Shown: positions 14,937 through 25,081 of the stretch, piece by piece | Position numbering within the stretch: the stretch's first letter is position 1 | Layout: the number at the start of each line of letters is the position of its first letter | Assembly: GCA_013388855.1 (NCBI GenBank) | Contig: JACAEM010000023.1 | Span: forward strand, 186,001-250,000 | Reading direction: 5' to 3' | Source of the DNA: Chloroflexota bacterium | Lineage (GTDB): Bacteria; Chloroflexota; Anaerolineae; Anaerolineales; Villigracilaceae | DNA: 64,000 nucleotides | Translations under genes and position numbers: made by a program | Notes under the pieces: model-generated | What the model saw: the letters and a program-made list of their open reading frames with translations, nothing else | Database searches by the model: none | Told to the model about the DNA's origin: nothing

Positions 14937-14942
14937 TATAAT
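14937..14942 (+). promoter_or_regulatory. -10 element, leaderless promoter of prepilin peptidase
   Basis: A perfect TATAAT ends seven bases before the ATG at 14950, and no Shine-Dalgarno is present. It also overlaps an in-frame upstream ATG at 14941, arguing that 14950 is the true start. Confidence 0.6.
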
Positions 14943-14949
14943 GGTATGG

Positions 14950-15741
14950 ATGAATATCAGTCTCATCGTTCCTATCCTCCTTGGCTGGCTGGGAGGGGCT
15001 TTCGTCAATTACATCGCCGATGTTTTGCCGCGCACCCGGATTCTTGGCCGCCCGGACTGCCTTCACTGCGAGAGTCCCTTCTCATGGGCAGACTACCTCA
15101 CCCTGCGCGCCTGCCGCTCCTGCGGGAAGAGACGGCCGATCCGCGCCTGGCTCGTGCAGATACTGACCGTCGCTTCCTTCGCCTACTTCTGGCTGTTCCC
15201 GTCAAAATTGGTTGGAATTCCCCTCGGGTTGATTATCCTCGTCTACTTCGGGGTGGTCACCGTGATTGACTTGGAACATCGACTCATCCTGCACCCAACC
15301 AGCATCGCCGGTGCGGTAATTGGCCTGATTAGCGGCACACTCATCCACAGCCGCGAAAATGGATTGCTGATTGGCGTCGGGAAGTCCCTGCTCGGCGGAT
15401 TGTTCGGCTATGGCGTCATGTTCATCTTCCACTATTTCGCGAGATATTTCACACGCCGCCGCGCCCGCAAGTTACAGGAAGCCGGAAAAGAAGATGACGG
15501 GGAAGATGCACTTGGGGATGCGGATGTCATTCTGCTTGGCGTGCTTGGACTCATGTTCGGCTGGCCTCTGATCTGGGATGTATTGCTGCTCGGAATCGTC
15601 CTGGGAGGTGTGTTCAGTATCCTCATCGTGATCGTTCAATTATTGCAAAGGCGTTCTGCCAGTGAAGCGTTGATGACCCCCATTCCTTATGGACCATATT
15701 TCATCGCCAGTGCGTTCTATTTTCTGTTTTTGTTCTTATAA
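14950..15741 (+). CDS. Prepilin peptidase (A24 family, PilD-like)
   Basis: A polytopic membrane aspartyl peptidase that cleaves leader peptides of type IV pilin-like proteins. The 263-residue protein has an N-terminal helix, a cytoplasmic zinc-binding loop with two CxxC pairs (CLHC, CRSC), and two catalytic Asp regions: VIDLEHR and GDADVILLG (GxGD-type). An acidic/basic cytoplasmic insertion lies before the second Asp. An ATG at 14941 overlaps the -10 box and is rejected. Located just upstream of TadE/TadG-like genes, it may process their partners. No secretion ATPase or platform gene is nearby, so the rest of the machine is elsewhere. Confidence 0.88.
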   Translation: MNISLIVPILLGWLGGAFVNYIADVLPRTRILGRPDCLHCESPFSWADYLTLRACRSCGKRRPIRAWLVQILTVASFAYFWLFPSKLVGIPLGLIILVYFGVVTVIDLEHRLILHPTSIAGAVIGLISGTLIHSRENGLLIGVGKSLLGGLFGYGVMFIFHYFARYFTRRRARKLQEAGKEDDGEDALGDADVILLGVLGLMFGWPLIWDVLLLGIVLGGVFSILIVIVQLLQRRSASEALMTPIPYGPYFIASAFYFLFLFL

Positions 15742-15755
15742 ATGATTTACGCATC

Positions 15756-15812
15756 GTCCCGAAGGTTTGTGCGGAAAGCAAGCCATACTTACGAATGCCT
15801 TCGGGACAATTT
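15756..15812 (+). terminator. Hairpin after prepilin peptidase gene
   Basis: Ten-pair stem GTCCCGAAGG / CCTTCGGGAC with a 32-base loop, then AATTTG. The stem sequence is nearly the same as in hairpins at 54738 and 56625. Confidence 0.55.
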
Positions 15813-15939
15813 GTGTATGAGCTTATAACTTGCAATTATGTTGGTTCGTTTTAGTACGAATGTCTTATTGGTCTGGGCAGCTTGCCCATTAAACTAAGAA
15901 TTAGGATCATTGGAAGACCCGAAAGCAGGATTTTTGATT

Positions 15940-17079
15940 ATGAAACTCAGAAATTTTTTCAGACCGGAAAATTCGGCACAGGCAATTGTTGAGTTCGCCA
16001 TCGCACTGCCTGTCCTTTTGCTGCTTCTCTACGGTCTGTTGGAAACCGGGCGCTACCTGTTCCTCTACTCCACTGTGGTGAACGCCAGCCGTCAGGCTGT
16101 CCGGTACGGATCGGCAACCGGCATCGGCAATAACGGCGTCCCGCGTTACCAGGATTGTCAGGGAATCAAAGCGGCGGCAAACACCGGCGCATATGTTGCT
16201 TCCTTTGACGCCATCAGAATCTATTACGATAGCGGACCATCTACGACACAAACTGAGTATTGTCAGTCGGGCAATTCCGATACCAGTTTTGTGCCGAGCA
16301 CAAATAACAATAGTCGCATCAGCGTTGTCGTGGAGGAACAATACACGCCGATTGTGCCGAGGATAGTTCCTTTTGTTTCAAACCTGATCAGTGCAAAAAG
16401 TTCGCGCACGATTCTGTTGAGCGTGTCGATCGTGGTCACCAGCCCGCCGACCCTGAGCCCCGTCGCTCCCACTGCCACGGGACCGTCGCCGACCTCCACA
16501 CAGACACCCTCGCGCACCCCGACAAACACACCCACCTTCACGCCGACGCGTACCAATACACCCATCACGCACACGGCGACCATGACGCGTACACCGACCG
16601 TCACATGGACGCCGTCCATGACGTTCACGCCGAGCAACACACCCACGCCGTCCTTCACCCCCACACCCTCCCGCACCCCCACGGCATCCAGAACGCCGAT
16701 TTCGAATTGTGGCTCTGTTACGCATGGACCGGAGGTGATCTCCGGCAAGACCTTCAGCATGACGATCAACAACCCAACCGGCGTCGCGCTGGAAGTGCTG
16801 GATGTGACCGTCTCTTGGAATCATGACGCCGGCCACAAGACCGGTTCAGACAAGACTTTGCGCTTGCAAAAAGCAGAGTTGGCAGGAACGTTCTGGACAG
16901 GCAATGTCTACTCGACCAGCTATACGATCATCCCCACCAACTTGACGATTCCGACAGGGACATCGACGATTATCTTTACCTTCCATCAGACCTATACCCA
17001 AACAGATGGTACCGAACGCATCTTCATCAACATTGCCACGAACGGCTGCCAATTGTATCCAATCGACTCGAACAATTAA
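15940..17079 (+). CDS. TadE-like protein with Thr/Pro-rich linker and C-terminal beta domain
   Basis: A 379-residue envelope protein. The N-terminus is a TadE-type signal/anchor (AQAIVEFAIALPVLLLLLYG, about residues 14-33) like that of Flp pilus minor pseudopilins. A periplasmic region of about 120 residues precedes a low-complexity Thr-Pro linker (about 165-255, repeated TPT/TPS units) and a C-terminal beta-rich domain (about 260-379) with two Cys. The linker is typical of surface-exposed Anaerolineae proteins and may be glycosylated. I start at the ATG at 15940 rather than the TTG at 15910 because the family begins with basic residues then the hydrophobic segment; AGGA lies 11 bases upstream. 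Confidence 0.8.
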   Translation: MKLRNFFRPENSAQAIVEFAIALPVLLLLLYGLLETGRYLFLYSTVVNASRQAVRYGSATGIGNNGVPRYQDCQGIKAAANTGAYVASFDAIRIYYDSGPSTTQTEYCQSGNSDTSFVPSTNNNSRISVVVEEQYTPIVPRIVPFVSNLISAKSSRTILLSVSIVVTSPPTLSPVAPTATGPSPTSTQTPSRTPTNTPTFTPTRTNTPITHTATMTRTPTVTWTPSMTFTPSNTPTPSFTPTPSRTPTASRTPISNCGSVTHGPEVISGKTFSMTINNPTGVALEVLDVTVSWNHDAGHKTGSDKTLRLQKAELAGTFWTGNVYSTSYTIIPTNLTIPTGTSTIIFTFHQTYTQTDGTERIFINIATNGCQLYPIDSNN

Positions 17080-17103
17080 CAAACCACGGAAAGAGTTTCG
17101 ACT

Positions 17104-17595
17104 ATGAAGACCAGGAAAAAAAGCGAACGCGGACAAAGCCTCGTTGAACTGGCAATCAGCCTCCTCGTTCTCCTCTACCTTCTTTCCGGAGTCGTGGAAT
17201 TCGGCATTGACTTTTTCCAATTCATCCAATTACGGGACGCCGCCCAGGAAGGCGCGTTGTACGGTTCGATCAACCCGGGCGTTTTGTCCCCCATCGAGAC
17301 TCGCGTGCGGAACGCCTCCGACAGTCCAATTGACTTGTCCGTCACATCCGGACCCCAGGCCGTAACCGTGACCGTTAAAGCGTATGATGATGCAACAGGC
17401 AATGAGATACCCAATCTGGCCGACGCCTGCGTGGGTGACGGCATTCGCGTGGATGTATCCTTCAACCATCAGATCTTCATGCCGTTCATCTCCCGATTGA
17501 TTGGCGCCCACAACAACACCCCTCCCAATACCATCCCGCTGACAGGCAGCGTTACCGATACCATTCTGCAATCAACGGCTACAGGCTGTTCATGA
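17104..17595 (+). CDS. TadE-like pseudopilin
   Basis: A 163-residue protein with the classic TadE start: basic residues, ERGQSLVELAISLLVLLYLLSG, then FGIDFFQ. The rest is a small periplasmic beta-rich domain with two Cys (about 111 and 162). It follows the larger TadE-like gene by 24 bp and should be co-transcribed. In Tad systems such proteins are minor components of the pilus or its assembly. The surrounding genes lack TadA/B/C, so partners must be encoded elsewhere. Confidence 0.82.
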   Translation: MKTRKKSERGQSLVELAISLLVLLYLLSGVVEFGIDFFQFIQLRDAAQEGALYGSINPGVLSPIETRVRNASDSPIDLSVTSGPQAVTVTVKAYDDATGNEIPNLADACVGDGIRVDVSFNHQIFMPFISRLIGAHNNTPPNTIPLTGSVTDTILQSTATGCS

Positions 17596-17642
17596 GTGGC
17601 CGGACGAGGGGCGAAAACAACAAAACACGTACATGGACACAA

Positions 17643-17677
17643 ATCCCGCAGACCATACTGAAACAAGTCTGCGGGAT
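17643..17677. terminator. Intergenic hairpin between tadE-like and tadG-like genes
   Basis: Eleven-pair stem ATCCCGCAGAC / GTCTGCGGGAT with a 13-base loop and no T-run; a likely RNA-processing or partial termination site within the pilus-like gene group. Confidence 0.45.
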
Positions 17678-17722
17678 GACTTATAAACAGCGATTGATCG
17701 ATCTTTGAGGAGAGATTCCCAC

Positions 17723-18967
17723 ATGTTGGTTCCTAAAAATGCCAGGGGAAAACCGCGCGGACAGGCGATCATCCTGATCGTTCTTGCCATGGTGGGTATT
17801 ATGGGCGTGGTCGGGCTGGTCGTGGATGGCGGGAATGCCTATCTTGACCGCCGCAACGCTCAGAACGCCGCCGACTCCGCTGCGCTGGCTGGGGCGGTCG
17901 TTCGTGTACGAAACGCCGGGGAGGATTGGGTGGGCGCAGTCATGGCATCCGCGGCGGAGAACGGCTACAACAACGACGGCGTCACCAACACCATCGAAGT
18001 GTACAGCCCTCCCAAAAGCGGTCCGTATGCCGATAACGTGGAATATTTACAGGTCATCATCACCACCCATGTAAAAACATACTTCGCCAATATCATCGGC
18101 AGGTCTGAGATCACCAATGTCGTCGAAGCCGTCGCGCGCACCAAAGTGGCGGAAATCAAGCCGCTTCTCGGTGGAGCCGCGCTGGTCAGCCTCGCCCCCA
18201 CCAGCGACTGCTTCCGTGAAAAATCGTTCTGGATCCACGAGGAAGGAACCTTTGCTGTTACCGGCGGCGGTATCTTCATCAACTCGAACAGCGAGAATTG
18301 CGCCCTCATCCAGCAGGGAAACGGAAGCATCTTCATGGTCGAGAATGACCCGATCAGCATCGTCGGCGGCGCGACCATTCAGAAGAGGAGGCTGATCTCC
18401 CCGGTCATGACAGTTGGCGTCACGCCGATCAATTATCCGCCTCCCATGTTCCTCCCGGAGATCGAGTGCAACCAGGAGGCGAATGTGAACGGCAGCAACA
18501 TGACCCCCGGAAATTGGAAAAAGCCTTTCCCGCCGGAGGGTGTGCGAACCCTGCAACCCGGAGTCTATTGCCTGCACGACGGCTTCTTCGCAAACGAGGA
18601 GACAAAACTCAACGGGAATGGTGTCACCTTCAAAATGGTGAAAGGGGAATTCCACATCAGCGGTCCGGCGGACCTCAACCTGTACGCCCCGCAGGAGGGC
18701 GAATACAAGGGGCTGCTCCTCTACGTCCCCATGGATAACGGGCGGCGCGTTGTGCTCAACGCGGACGCAAATTCGAAATTCGTCGGAACCGTTCTCGCTC
18801 CCGCTTCGCACATTCTCTTCAAGGGGAGCGATTCCCGCTTCGGTTTCCACAGCCAGTTCATCGGCTATAGCATCGAACTCGCCGGCGACAGCAACATCGT
18901 GATCGTGTACGACCCCATGCAGAATTACAACACGATGATCATGCCTGAGGTCCAGTTGATCCAATGA
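17723..18967 (+). CDS. TadG-like envelope protein, paralogue 1
   Basis: A 414-residue protein whose N-terminus matches the TadE/G-like family: RGQAIILIVLAMVG (hydrophobic anchor, about 13-37), then VVDGG and DRRNAQNAADSAALAGA. The middle domain (about 60-150) ends in VEAVARTK, and the C-terminal half is a repetitive beta-structure with a conserved EYKGLLLY-type strand and FIGYSIEL near the end. The same organisation recurs in four paralogues at 23885, 25381, 26282 and 28157. Probably anchored by the N-terminal helix with the beta domain outside. Start chosen at 17723 because GAGGAGA lies nine bases upstream; an ATG at 17705 lies before that site. Confidence 0.82.
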   Translation: MLVPKNARGKPRGQAIILIVLAMVGIMGVVGLVVDGGNAYLDRRNAQNAADSAALAGAVVRVRNAGEDWVGAVMASAAENGYNNDGVTNTIEVYSPPKSGPYADNVEYLQVIITTHVKTYFANIIGRSEITNVVEAVARTKVAEIKPLLGGAALVSLAPTSDCFREKSFWIHEEGTFAVTGGGIFINSNSENCALIQQGNGSIFMVENDPISIVGGATIQKRRLISPVMTVGVTPINYPPPMFLPEIECNQEANVNGSNMTPGNWKKPFPPEGVRTLQPGVYCLHDGFFANEETKLNGNGVTFKMVKGEFHISGPADLNLYAPQEGEYKGLLLYVPMDNGRRVVLNADANSKFVGTVLAPASHILFKGSDSRFGFHSQFIGYSIELAGDSNIVIVYDPMQNYNTMIMPEVQLIQ

Positions 18968-19022: not shown

Positions 19023-19028
19023 TATAAT
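19023..19028 (+). promoter_or_regulatory. -10 element of glmS promoter
   Basis: TATAAT about 59 bases upstream of the ribozyme cleavage site. Transcription would begin near 19035. A GAGACC at about 19000 is a weak -35 candidate. Confidence 0.5.
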
Positions 19029-19086
19029 CCCGGCTCGAGATTTTTTCCGTCAAGGAGGTGAACCGGCACATTCTCCGGGAAAGACA

Positions 19087-19300
19087 GCGCATGATCCCGC
19101 GCACGCGGGATGACGAGGACAAGGGTTCTCCATCGCAGGATGGAGTTAACCCCGGCGAGACCAGCCGGGGGAAAATCGACAGATCAGCGGAAGCCCTTCG
19201 GGTGCGCCATCACCCGTTTCATCTTTCCCTCCGAAAATGGAACTTTGCAATGCAACGCCGCGCCAGTAATGCCGCGGACAGAAATGCAAAGAGTGGCAAT
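19087..19300 (+). ncRNA. glmS self-cleaving ribozyme (GlcN6P-responsive)
   Basis: The 412-bp leader between the TadG-like gene and glmS contains the core of the glmS ribozyme. Cleavage would fall between A19086 and G19087 in CAGCGCATG. A P1 hairpin (GATCCCGC / GCGGGAT) is followed by the invariant GACGAGG (19112-19118), then GGGTT and, after two extra hairpins, ATCGACAGATCAGCGG, AAGCCCT and GGGTG. TGCGC downstream can pair with the GCGCA at the cleavage site (P2.2). A P4-like region ends around 19300. The family uses glucosamine-6-phosphate as coenzyme to cut and destabilise glmS mRNA, giving product feedback. The boundaries of the 3' domain are approximate. Confidence 0.82.
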
Positions 19301-19379
19301 ATGCAGGGTCAATTCCCGTCATGTCAGCATATCTGACAGTCGGCAGTGATACCTGACACTTTCAATTCGGAGGATCCCC

Positions 19380-21221
19380 ATGTGTGGAATCGTCGGATAT
19401 ATCGGGCCGCGTGACGCGACACCGATTATCATCAATGGCCTGAAAAGGCTGGAGTACCGCGGTTATGATTCGGCTGGGATCGCCGTCATGAACGGCGACC
19501 AGCTCGAAGTGAGGAAAGACGCGGGCAAGTTATCTCAATTGATCGATCTCGTAAGCAAATCCCCCATCGAGGGCGCGCCGGGAATCGGTCACACGCGCTG
19601 GGCGACGCACGGCGCACCGAACGCGCGCAACGCGCATCCGCACGTCGGACAGACCAAGCGGGTTGTCGTGGTGCAAAACGGCATCGTTGAGAATTTCCTT
19701 GAACTCAAGGATGAGCTGATCGCCGAGGGTGTGGAATTTCAATCGGACACAGATACCGAGACCATCGTGCATCTCGTGGAGCATTACCTTGCCACCGGCA
19801 TTGGGCTCGTGGAGGCGGCGCGTAAAACATTCAACCAGATCCAGGGCGCGAATGTGGTCGTGTTGATGTCCGCCGATGAGCCGGACAAGATTGTAACGGC
19901 GCGCATCGGCAACGCTGGCGGTGTGGTGCTTGGACTGGGCGAGGGCGAGAATTATCTCGCCAGCGACACGCCCGCCATCATGGAACACACGCGCAAGGTC
20001 ATCTTTTTGGAATCGCGGCAGATGGCTGTGGTGACGCGCAACACCATCACCGTCGAAACGCTGGATGGAGGCAAGGTCAAGCCGCAGGTGCATACCGTCT
20101 CGTGGGACCCGGTCGCCGCGGAGAAGGGCGAATATCGCCATTTCATGCAGAAGGAGATCCATGAGCAGGTGCGCGCGTTGACCGATACGCTCGCCGGACG
20201 AGTGGATTTCGCCAACGGGAAGATTCGTCTGCCTGATCTCAAGCTGACAGCGGAACTGGCAAAGAAAATCGAACGAATTTACATCACCGCCTGCGGCACT
20301 GCCGCCTATGCGGGCATGGTGGGAAAATACTTAATCGAGAAGATCGCCCGCATCCCTGTGGAGGTGGTGATCGGTTCCGAGTTCCGCTACAGCGACCCGA
20401 TCCTGAACGACCGGACGGTTGTCCTCGCCATTTCACAATCCGGCGAGACGGCTGACACGCTCGCGGCGATGGAAGAGGGGCGGCGGAAGGGCGCAGTGCT
20501 TTGGAGCATTGTCAACGCCATTGGCTCGCAAGCTATCCGCGTTGCAGACGGCTTCATCTCGATGCAGACCGGACCGGAGATCGGTGTCGCTTCGACCAAG
20601 GCGTTCACTGCCCCCCTCGTGGATCAATACATGCTCGCCATTTTGCTCGCGGACCTGCGCGGCACCATCGACGAAAAGACTCGCAGAGAATTGGTTGCCG
20701 ACCTGCGTCTCATCCCCGACCTCGTCGGCAGAACACTCGACCGCGAACCTGAAGTCGAAGCCGTCGCCCACGCGTTGAAAGATGTACGCGATTGTCTGTA
20801 TCTTGGACGCGGGATCAACATGCCCATTGCTTATGAAGGCGCGTTGAAGTTAAAGGAGATTTCCTACATCCATGCCGAAGGATATCCGGCCGGAGAAATG
20901 AAACACGGCCCCATTGCCCTGATCGATGAACACATGCCGGTCCTCTGTCTCGCGCCGAAGGACCCCTGGCATGAGAAGATGATTTCACAGATCCAGCAGG
21001 CAAAGGCGCGCGGCGGGACGGTCATCGCGGTCGCGACCGACGGCGATGAATTGGTGCAGGGAATGACAGACCATGTCCTGTGGGTTCCTGAAACACCGTG
21101 GATGCTTTCGCCCGTGGTCACTGTTCTCCCCCTGCAATTGCTGGCATATCACATCGCCGCCGCCCGCGGGCTGGATGTGGACCAGCCCAGGAACCTGGCG
21201 AAGAGTGTGACTGTGGAATAG
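19380..21221 (+). CDS. glmS: Glutamine-fructose-6-phosphate aminotransferase (isomerising)
   Basis: Makes glucosamine-6-phosphate from fructose-6-phosphate and glutamine, feeding UDP-GlcNAc and MurA. The 613-residue enzyme starts with the Ntn nucleophile Cys2 (MCGIVGYIG). The glutaminase domain runs to about 240, and two SIS isomerase domains follow with TACGTAAYAG, SQSGETADT and the C-terminal NLAKSVTVE that shapes the active site. A CGGAGGA Shine-Dalgarno lies close upstream. Expression is predicted to be controlled by the ribozyme in its leader. Confidence 0.97.
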   Translation: MCGIVGYIGPRDATPIIINGLKRLEYRGYDSAGIAVMNGDQLEVRKDAGKLSQLIDLVSKSPIEGAPGIGHTRWATHGAPNARNAHPHVGQTKRVVVVQNGIVENFLELKDELIAEGVEFQSDTDTETIVHLVEHYLATGIGLVEAARKTFNQIQGANVVVLMSADEPDKIVTARIGNAGGVVLGLGEGENYLASDTPAIMEHTRKVIFLESRQMAVVTRNTITVETLDGGKVKPQVHTVSWDPVAAEKGEYRHFMQKEIHEQVRALTDTLAGRVDFANGKIRLPDLKLTAELAKKIERIYITACGTAAYAGMVGKYLIEKIARIPVEVVIGSEFRYSDPILNDRTVVLAISQSGETADTLAAMEEGRRKGAVLWSIVNAIGSQAIRVADGFISMQTGPEIGVASTKAFTAPLVDQYMLAILLADLRGTIDEKTRRELVADLRLIPDLVGRTLDREPEVEAVAHALKDVRDCLYLGRGINMPIAYEGALKLKEISYIHAEGYPAGEMKHGPIALIDEHMPVLCLAPKDPWHEKMISQIQQAKARGGTVIAVATDGDELVQGMTDHVLWVPETPWMLSPVVTVLPLQLLAYHIAAARGLDVDQPRNLAKSVTVE

Positions 21222-23789: not shown

Positions 23790-23811
23790 GGTTACACCTT
23801 TCAAGATTGTA
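23790..23811. promoter_or_regulatory. TGTAACC / CTTTCA..TGTA composite motif in divergent region
   Basis: On the minus strand TGTAACCTTTTCGT (ending 23796) faces the MFS gene. On the plus strand CTTTCAAGATTGTA (23798-23811) faces the TadG-like gene at 23885. The 14-mer TGTAACCTTTTCGT is repeated exactly at 29599. Confidence 0.4.
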
Positions 23812-23884
23812 TTTCAGCTATACGGTTTCATATATGCGAAGACAAAGAACGATACATATAATCAAAATAGACAGGAGTAACGCT

Positions 23885-25081
23885 ATGAAAAATCACACCC
23901 ATGAAAAAGGACAAGCCATCGTCATAATCGCTTTTGCGATCATTGCATTGGTCGGCTTCGCGGCGCTTGCCGTCGATGGCGGGCGGGCCTTGTCAGACCG
24001 GCGCCACGCACAAAACGCCGCAGATACGGCGGCCTTCGCCGCGGCGCTGGCAAAAATCAAAGGGCAGGATTATTCGACCGTCGGCATCAACCGCTCGACC
24101 AGCAATGGCTATAATGACGACGGTATTTACAACGAAGTGGAAGTATACAGCCCACCCATCGATGGTCCGTATGCTGGGCAAACCGAATACGTACAGGTCA
24201 AGATTACGTCACGCATTGACACCGTTTTCGCCCGCGTTCTGGGGATCGCCCAGTTGACCAATCGGGTCCAGGCAGTAGTGAAAGCTGTTCCCGGTGTGAC
24301 AACCCCCATGGTCTTCGGCAACGCGGTGGTCAGCCTCTCGCCGCATGAATGTGACGCCACCTGGAGTCACGGCAATGCAGAAGTGAATGTCATCGGAGGC
24401 GGCATTTTTACCAATTCAGACTGCGCAACCGCCTTCCGGCAGAACGGTTCCGGCACGCTCACCGCCCCGTCCATTACAGTTGTGGGAGGCACATCATACA
24501 GCGATGGACATATCTTCCCCGAACCAACAGTCGGCGCGACGCAGTTGGAATATCCTCCCTTCCTCATGCCCGACCCGACCTGCGATGCCGATGCGGTTCA
24601 GACCGGATCCACACTTGCTCCCGGCAACTATACTGGGACCTTCCCCCCAAACGGAGTCACCCGCCTCGATCCCGGCATCTATTGCGTAGATGGGGAGTTC
24701 CGGCTGAACGGCGGCCAATCCCTGACCGGCAGTGAAGTTTTAATCGTCATGAAAACCGACAGGCTGGTATGGAATGGCGGTTCCGCGGCAAACCTCAGCG
24801 CCCCCACCAGCGGTCCGTACAAAGGGTTGTTGATCTTCTTCCCAATGAGCAATGCCAGTGAATTGCAGATCAACGGGAATTCCGATATGCGCCTGACCGG
24901 CTCCATTCTCGCTCCCGCCTCGCACATCGAATTGCTCGGCACCGGCGCGGTGGACGGTTTCAACAGCCAGGTCATCGGATACACCGTGGAATATGGCGGC
25001 ACAGGCGATGGGACAATCCGCTATGACGACAACACCAATTACGACGCGCAAATTCCTCCCAAGATAGAGCTTTCTCTATAA
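23885..25081 (+). CDS. TadG-like envelope protein, paralogue 2
   Basis: A 398-residue paralogue of the protein at 17723. The N-terminal segment EKGQAIVIIAFAIIALVGF is followed by AVDGGRALSDRRHAQNAADTAAFAAAL, identical over long stretches to paralogue 5. The C-terminal half is a beta-rich repeated region ending with GPYKGLLIFF and QVIGYTVEY. The start at 23885 is fixed by AGGAG eight bases upstream; an in-frame ATG at 23807 precedes that site. It has its own terminator. Probably an anchored surface or pilus-associated protein. Confidence 0.82.
   Translation: MKNHTHEKGQAIVIIAFAIIALVGFAALAVDGGRALSDRRHAQNAADTAAFAAALAKIKGQDYSTVGINRSTSNGYNDDGIYNEVEVYSPPIDGPYAGQTEYVQVKITSRIDTVFARVLGIAQLTNRVQAVVKAVPGVTTPMVFGNAVVSLSPHECDATWSHGNAEVNVIGGGIFTNSDCATAFRQNGSGTLTAPSITVVGGTSYSDGHIFPEPTVGATQLEYPPFLMPDPTCDADAVQTGSTLAPGNYTGTFPPNGVTRLDPGIYCVDGEFRLNGGQSLTGSEVLIVMKTDRLVWNGGSAANLSAPTSGPYKGLLIFFPMSNASELQINGNSDMRLTGSILAPASHIELLGTGAVDGFNSQVIGYTVEYGGTGDGTIRYDDNTNYDAQIPPKIELSL

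Follow-up and report, generated by a model that had tools for sequence, protein, structure and literature searches.

In this study, we describe the region ahead of glmS in a Chloroflexota genome, as it lies within the 64,000-nt stretch of DNA that was analysed (the window). The gene at 19380-21221 scores 768.8 bits with TIGR01135, for which 418 is the cut-off, and directly before it, as the initial annotation had claimed, stands an element with the layout of a glmS ribozyme, an RNA known as a riboswitch that acts by cutting and mRNA decay. The features of the region are collected in Table 1. Tad pilus-like genes lie near glmS at 14941-18967 and 23807-25081; the product of 17705-18967 matches PF13400, and by eye that of 23807-25081 resembles it. 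A Thr/Pro-rich repeat stretch is found in the protein encoded at 15910-17079. Helix names follow parts of PMC7125110 and PMC11602151, together with common usage.

Table 1. Features of the glmS upstream region (window coordinates)
Feature	Position	Strand	Basis or remark
TATAAT, likely -10 box	19023-19028	+	sequence; transcript start expected near 19035
SD-like AAGGAGGTGA, no start codon at normal spacing, STAB-SD-like	19052-19061	+	sequence; GGAGG counts in leaders
P0 5' strand GGGAAAGA	19077-19084	+	pairs with 19222-19229; partner-permutation tests
Predicted cleavage site A/G	19086-19087	+	alignment to RF00234
glmS ribozyme	19086-19297	+	RF00234 match; end placed from P3.1 strand to 19297
P2.2 5' strand CGC	19088-19090	+	partner GCG 19187-19189; pairs constant in 67 sequences, partly by selection of the set
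P1 hairpin ATCCCGC/GCGGGAT	19094-19111	+	two-sided changes at 6/7 pairs
GACGAGG	19112-19118	+	includes P2.1 5' strand CGA 19114-19116, partner TCG 19176-19178
P2 5' strand AAGGG	19121-19125	+	partner CCCTT 19194-19198; 98.8% of cells paired, two-sided changes at 3/5 pairs
Inserted hairpin 1 CTCCATC/GATGGAG, loop GCAG	19128-19134/19139-19145	+	two-sided changes at 7/7 pairs
Inserted hairpin 2 CCCCGGC/GCCGGGG	19150-19156/19164-19170	+	two-sided changes at 7/7 pairs
Core 3' strands: AAAATCGA (P2.1), GCGG (P2.2), through GCGGAAG	19172-19193	+	
P3 hairpin CGGGTG/CACCCG	19199-19216	+	counted in 67-sequence alignment
P3.1: L3 GCCAT could pair with GTGGC	19206-19210/19293-19297	+	inspection only
P0 3' strand TCTTTCCC, first half of switch strand	19222-19229	+	partner-permutation tests, alignment
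Anti-SD CCTCCGAA	19228-19235	+	exact complement of 19366-19373; CC 19228-19229 common to P0
P4 with internal loop, GUAA tetraloop 19266-19269	19243-19291	+	MFE fold; named by inspection
glmS Shine-Dalgarno (SD) TTCGGAGG	19366-19373	+	partner of 19228-19235; flank covariation
glmS start codon	19380-19382	+	gene 19380-21221, TIGR01135

Sequences compared

The 189 loci gathered for comparison were reduced to 151 distinct ribozyme places by dropping 14 with no core, 8 with no GACGAGG, 4 with no site and 12 duplicates, and in 120 of the 151 the ribozyme stands before glmS. The core pattern scan (at least 119 matches) supplied 119 of the 189 loci, and the parser required the core motifs, so that finding an invariant core among the 67 aligned sequences is partly circular; neither the pattern scan nor the parser made use of P0, the SD or the leader. 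A site and spacing filter was passed by 114 of the 120 glmS places, and the members below 80% identity make up 85 representatives, of which 66 (up to 150 nt) form alignment A1 together with the window (67 sequences). The energy test covered 70 sequences and the comparison of unpaired probabilities 111. In a held-out set, 36 of 40 loci were parsed, and testing was done on the 23 among them that belong to the class, lie before glmS and were new; an outgroup of other Chloroflexota yielded 32 parsed ribozymes out of 34.

A glmS ribozyme with two inserted hairpins

The core landmarks occur in the order first described, namely A19086/GCGC, GACGAGG (19112-19118), GGGTT (19123-19127), ATCGACAGATC (19175-19185), GCGG (19187-19190) and GGGTG (19200-19204), and the window carries the A/GCGC site, the strands of the P2/P2.1/P2.2 double pseudoknot, GACGAGG, AUCGA and GCGG. 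When the region was searched with the RF00234 covariance model (cmscan), a match was obtained at 19075-19250 with 33.3 bits and an E-value of 3.4e-6, spanning model positions 1-167 of 167. A scan of the whole window at the gathering threshold (37 bits) returned no match because 33.3 bits lies under that value, which is a database cut-off chosen by curators and not a property of the RNA; relatives fall on both sides of it, with 9 of 61 genomes above. A lineage model, built in part from the window itself, scores the window at 153.3 bits. Genomes of the window's genus have their ribozyme sequences in common with records titled Anaerolineales MAG-267 (L099), Chloroflexi bacterium CFX6 (L103) and Anaerolineales KLAP176 (L045), which suggests that the host belongs to the Anaerolineae. 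We regard it as virtually certain that the element is a glmS ribozyme, for which cleavage and a response to the ligand are predicted. A second weak Rfam match in the window's genome (E 6.2) was rejected, as it has no core.

The RF00234 match, the core strands and the comparison with relatives thus bear out the initial annotation in that a structural variant of the glmS ribozyme is present in a Chloroflexota genome. A host in this phylum is not unexpected, as 110 of 400 genomes of the phylum match above the Rfam cut-off, with up to 107 bits. The interval first reported for the element, 19087-19300, ends close to the end placed here; it begins with the base directly behind the cut, and for this reason it excludes the leader strand of P0.

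The two extra hairpins that had been noticed between GGGTT and ATCGA exist, as judged from covariation at all 7 pairs of each in 67 sequences, with 95.8% of cells paired in hairpin 1 and 84.8% in hairpin 2. They lie between the P2 5' strand and AUCGA, ahead of a small hairpin within P2 in the Rfam structure, at the insertion place known as P2a. Two hairpins are present in 79 of 84 parsed representatives and one in the other 5, although most representatives were found by the core pattern scan, which possibly favours two-hairpin forms; the first loop is of the GNRA type in 46 of the 84. Two ribozymes from outside the class (L215 and L219) also have two hairpins. The double insertion is not particular to this example: it is usual in the lineage and present in some other Chloroflexota. 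The more unusual parts, which had been missed, are a helix between the leader and J3/4, a strand complementary to the SD, and an SD in the leader with no start codon.

A helix across the predicted cut site

In the window, GGGAAAGA shortly before the cut pairs with UCUUUCCC after P3, and this helix, here called P0, is without a counterpart in the Rfam model. Across 114 glmS members, P0 pairing within the same genome is stronger than with permuted partners (z -10.2, 0/2000), as it is across the 85 representatives (z -9.3, 0/2000; mean duplex energy -12.29 vs -10.33 with partners swapped), and control pairings of the leader with the P4 region gave z 0.1 and -0.5 in the same two sets. Scored by its best contiguous stretch, P0 has 7 bp or more in 96 of the 114 members and 5 bp or more in 110. 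At least 7 bp is found in 69 of the 85 representatives, compared with a mean of 48.5 when partners are swapped (maximum 59 in 100 rounds of swapping) and 16.4 after the leaders were shuffled. Among the strand pairs are CGGGAAGC/GCTTCCCG, GGAGGGT/ACCCTCC, TGGGGGT/ACCCCCA and GAGCAAA/TTTGCTC.

Moreover, the 23 held-out members of the class, found by an Rfam model that is blind to P0, gave z -7.4 (0/5000), with pairs such as GGGATGT/ACATCCC and TTGGGAA/TTCCCAA, and a stricter subset of 12 (sharing less than 80% identity with the first set and among themselves) gave z -5.9 (0/5000). In an unaided MAFFT alignment, two-sided changes occur at 8/8 pairs of P0, 74.6% of cells are paired, and two-sided cells number 50 vs 25.3 after shuffling (0/500). 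Sliding the helix by one column gives covariation about as good, which we think likely to arise because rows of the alignment are out of register. With P0 included, the lineage model finds a match in 185 of 298 class genomes (E-value at most 0.001). In the other Chloroflexota, genome-matched P0 pairing was absent (z 0.4), and 2 of the 32 parsed ribozymes (of 34) reach 7 bp. From these comparisons we are highly confident that the P0 helix exists.

Two short glmS ribozymes (L244 and L245) have a 9-bp P0 and are followed immediately by the SD. The distance from their core to the start codon is 51 and 57 nt, respectively, and therefore leaves no room for a normal P4; L245 has two RF00234 matches. 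In three genomes of the class (G561, G633 and G684) the lineage model matches at positions 46-150 only, suggesting an altered P0/P1.

Complementarity between the switch strand and the glmS SD

The strand that follows P3, here called the switch strand, contains CCUCCGAA (19228-19235), which is exactly complementary to the glmS SD UUCGGAGG (19366-19373). SDs pair better with the switch strand of their own genome than with those of other genomes (z -7.6 in 114 members and -5.7 in 85 representatives, 0/2000 each), and the corresponding controls with the P4 region gave z -0.6 and -0.8. GGAGG in the SD and CCTCC in the switch strand occur together in 48 representatives, the SD motif by itself in 19, the switch motif by itself in 3 and neither in 15 (P 6e-5).

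Covariation was further followed in the bases flanking these motifs, limited to the 75 of 114 members that have both the CCTCC and the GGAGG core. The first and second flanks are Watson-Crick in 54 and 47 of the 75, against 30.6 and 30.0 expected (0/10000 each), and in 33 and 29 of 48 representatives, against 20.2 and 18.0 expected (0 and 5 of 10000). No covariation was seen at the third flank, nor, in representatives, on the other side of the core. An anti-SD that covaries with the SD, as a translational expression platform would have, is thus found, and we consider it quite probable that the switch strand pairs with the glmS SD. P0 and the SD helix overlap most commonly by 2 and 3 nt (30 and 21 cases), and by 2 nt in the window. 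One member (L077) has an unusual SD, CTTGGGGGT, that nevertheless matches its switch strand ACCCCCAAG and the leader strand TGGGGGT.

The anti-SD is narrower in its distribution than P0 and mostly confined to part of the class. Among held-out members, CCTCC follows P3 in 8 of 8 that belong to the window's family and in 2 of the 15 belonging to others; the SD pairing test in this set was weak (z -2.5, 41/5000). In other Chloroflexota there was no match between SD and switch strand (z 0.2); CCTCC was counted there in 4 of 32 ribozymes, in which the parse ended early and apparently covered the P2 strand, and in 0 of 22 in a separate count with some sites misplaced.

An SD-like sequence in the leader

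The leader of the window carries a strong SD-like sequence behind which no start codon stands, near an mRNA 5' end placed from the TATAAT box, and in these respects it corresponds to a STAB-SD. Of the 85 representatives, 54 have GGAGG in their leader, compared with 2/83, 0/79 and 1/60 in control windows and 4.0 expected from shuffling; the motif is followed at 4-10 nt by ATG in 4 of the 54, and by ATG, GTG or TTG in 7. The mean longest match to the complement of the usual 16S tail is 6.87 for the leader SD vs 5.39 for the glmS SD. The sequence GGATCACCTCCTTT is present in nine genomes of the genus, as candidate 16S ends, and was not found in the window's own genome. A decoy role of the leader GGAGG, in which it would pair with the switch strand, was also considered and rejected, as the flanks of this motif match in 7 of 59 against 6.9 expected, whereas the flanks of the glmS SD covary.

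GGAGG also stands in the leader of 13 of 32 ribozymes from other Chloroflexota, and if these are a guide, the leader SD would be older than P0. In parts of PMC3997798, the STAB-SD of Bacillus is described as protecting mRNA without a start codon. An RNase J gene is present in the window's genome (595.8 bits).

Ribozymes ahead of glutamine synthetase and exporter genes

A second set of ribozymes, starting with AGCGGCTGA or similar, precedes glutamine synthetase (TIGR00653 on two fragments, under the full-length cut-off) and, at L167, a YedA-like exporter (a fragment, under the cut-off). P0 is less certain here (z -2.3, 80/5000, 18 representatives). Of 23 ribozymes, 14 combine CCTTCC in the switch strand with a downstream GGAAGG, the pairing test between switch strand and downstream element is weak (z -1.9, 183/5000), and about half of the set has, by eye, terminator-like hairpins before the gene. 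An SD-like GGAGG ahead of ATG forms the downstream partner at L114 and L143.

Glutamine synthetase follows glmS-type ribozymes that start with AGCGGCTG at L034, L035, L038, L072, L114, L117, L122 and L131, and further examples are L135, L136, L148, L155, L156, L165 and others; many of the ribozymes linked to this gene show CCCTTCC/GGAAGGG and terminator-like hairpins. L158 and L007 place such a ribozyme before or near exporter genes, alike L167 by eye, and at L007 a 6S RNA (76.9 bits) lies just upstream. Ribozymes of the kind studied here also appear in records titled as other phyla, namely Actinomycetes (L109), Spirochaetaceae (L062) and Paludibacter (L089), by either wrong binning or transfer; that of L109 stands before a glutamine synthetase gene despite its AGCGC core start. 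A ribozyme of this type was sought in the window's genome and rejected, as neither of its two glutamine synthetase genes has a ribozyme core at its locus.

Predicted effect of losing the leader

The calculations summarised here refer to pseudoknot-free folds. Opening the SD in the window costs 3.80 kcal/mol with a 12-nt leader in place and 6.87 without it (a rise of 3.1), and a shuffled leader also gives 6.87. A second run with a slightly different 3' end gave a rise of 2.6 kcal/mol in the free fold and 3.7 with the core helices enforced. When the leader is taken at its full length, beginning at the expected transcript start, the rise is 0.2 (free) or 1.2 kcal/mol (core enforced), which is smaller because this leader forms a hairpin of its own; disruption of the leader strand in this form brings the free-fold cost slightly down, from 6.48 to 5.97. 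Over 70 sequences the change has a mean of 0.83 and a median of 0.29, exceeding 1 in 23 and falling below -1 in 4. The unpaired probability of the SD over 111 sequences is 0.19 uncut vs 0.13 cut, so that predicted pairing is high in both states; masking increases by more than 0.1 after leader loss in 23 of the 111 and shifts in the opposite direction in none. For the window, the energy calculations are equivocal on switching.

Discussion

It is well established for the B. subtilis glmS ribozyme, according to parts of PMC3997798, that cleavage is followed by decay through RNase J1. In the window, the strand of P0 that lies beyond the core can also hide the ribosome-binding site of glmS, and therefore cutting may directly switch off translation. 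We propose that at high glucosamine-6-phosphate (GlcN6P) the RNA would cut at A19086/G19087, after which the leader with its STAB-SD-like site would be retained by P0 alone and would depart. Once the leader has left, the switch strand could pair fully with the SD: the freed strand CUUUCCCUCCGAA would gain two G-C pairs and mask the SD, turning translation off, and the mRNA, now with a 5'-OH and without its leader, would be open to RNase J. At low GlcN6P, P0 and the leader would stay and glmS would be expressed. A GlcN6P-dependent glmS ribozyme of an Anaerolineae type, in which cleavage drives both SD masking and exposure to RNase J, is in our opinion the best explanation of the region, with about an even chance of being right as a whole. 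The comparison of sequences supports the core, P0, the complementarity of switch strand and SD, and the start-less leader SD; the switching step we infer from these.

The reading that competes most seriously, which we hold to be possible at somewhat short of an even chance, is that P0 is purely structural. It would clamp the leader, aid folding of the core and perhaps replace the support of P3.1/P4, while decay by RNase J would regulate as in B. subtilis and the anti-SD would serve as secondary tuning or as a constant damper. This would agree with the held-out members of other families, which have P0 mostly without CCTCC, with the 9-bp P0 of the two short ribozymes that have no room for a normal P4, and with the high predicted pairing of the SD in both states. 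However, the covariation of switch strand and SD extends past their common core, and in the second set the switch strand often matches a different downstream element, whereas a clamp alone needs neither match. A further role of P0 has to be assumed as well, since P0 is class-wide while CCTCC was seen, among held-out members, mostly in the window's family, and SD pairing gave a weak signal in that set. Moreover, since only two bases are contested in the window, P0 and the SD helix may coexist.

A further reading has the reverse sign, in which P0 would stabilise the anti-SD helix by end-to-end stacking, the SD would be masked in the intact RNA and cleavage would raise translation. The overlap of 2 nt in the window, and of 2 and 3 nt most commonly elsewhere, would fit stacked neighbouring helices. 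Nonetheless we find this improbable, as the sign is wrong for feedback control of glmS and under the energy model leader loss increases masking (by more than 0.1 in 23 of 111, with none shifting the opposite way). Finally, the score under the Rfam cut-off could be thought to mark a degraded or ligand-changed descendant that has lost its response to GlcN6P, which is very improbable given that the core strands are intact in the window and in relatives found by the Rfam model alone, and that glmS lies downstream in 120 of the 151 distinct places.

Returning to cleavage-driven masking as the preferred account, the ribozyme may be set beside known systems. It resembles the Bacillota-type RF00234 ribozyme (for example L297 of Acetoanaerobium noterae, 94.6 bits) in its cleavage site, P1, P2, P2.1, P2.2 and P3, in a predicted P4 with a GNRA-type L4 (by inspection) and in its location before glmS; it differs in the two hairpins before AUCGA, the leader-J3/4 helix P0 and the SD-complementary strand between P3 and P4. 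The ribozymes of other Chloroflexota (L190-L219, L260-L263) share the same core, and L215, L219, L260 and L261 also the two hairpins, but they have neither genome-matched P0 nor an SD match. The glmS variants of Deinococcus-Thermus treated by McCown, Roth and Breaker in 2011 reportedly have extra core stems and changed support domains, and by this description the extra core stems are a likeness to the window. A GlmS query matched 19 Deinococcus plasmid records, and among the best 3 of these glmS was not seen, all 3 being SIS-domain proteins. Like ordinary riboswitch platforms, the arrangement proposed here would act by SD masking or by a terminator with a competing strand; unlike in ordinary riboswitches, where the ligand stabilises folding, the trigger would be self-cleavage and the loss of a strand. 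The STAB-SD leaders of Bacillus, as presented in parts of PMC3997798, likewise have a strong start-less SD in the leader, and RNase J is encoded in the window's genome; in contrast to those leaders, the STAB-SD-like site of the window lies upstream of a predicted ribozyme cut able to remove it, and by analogy it may protect the mRNA until then.

The ribozyme itself is of a known kind. In the titles and abstract openings of the papers listed by literature searches on glmS and its control, other than McCown 2011, no account was found of P0, a covarying anti-SD or the glutamine synthetase set, and these parts, that paper aside, are apparently new. A helix that clamps the cut site while one of its strands also covaries with the SD would give the glmS ribozyme a built-in expression platform, and with it a directly testable route from the ribozyme cut to the control of translation or termination. 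The lineage model, for its part, finds members that Rfam scores under its cut-off. More tentatively, the Anaerolineae glmS ribozyme may be a self-cleaving riboswitch with expression platforms, in which, once the leader is cut off, the switch strand passes from P0 to the glmS SD or, in the second set, to a strand competing with a terminator ahead of glutamine synthetase, so that GlcN6P would control both genes and loss of the STAB-SD would lead to decay. If this is true, control by GlcN6P would reach not only glmS but also the supply of its nitrogen donor through glutamine synthetase.
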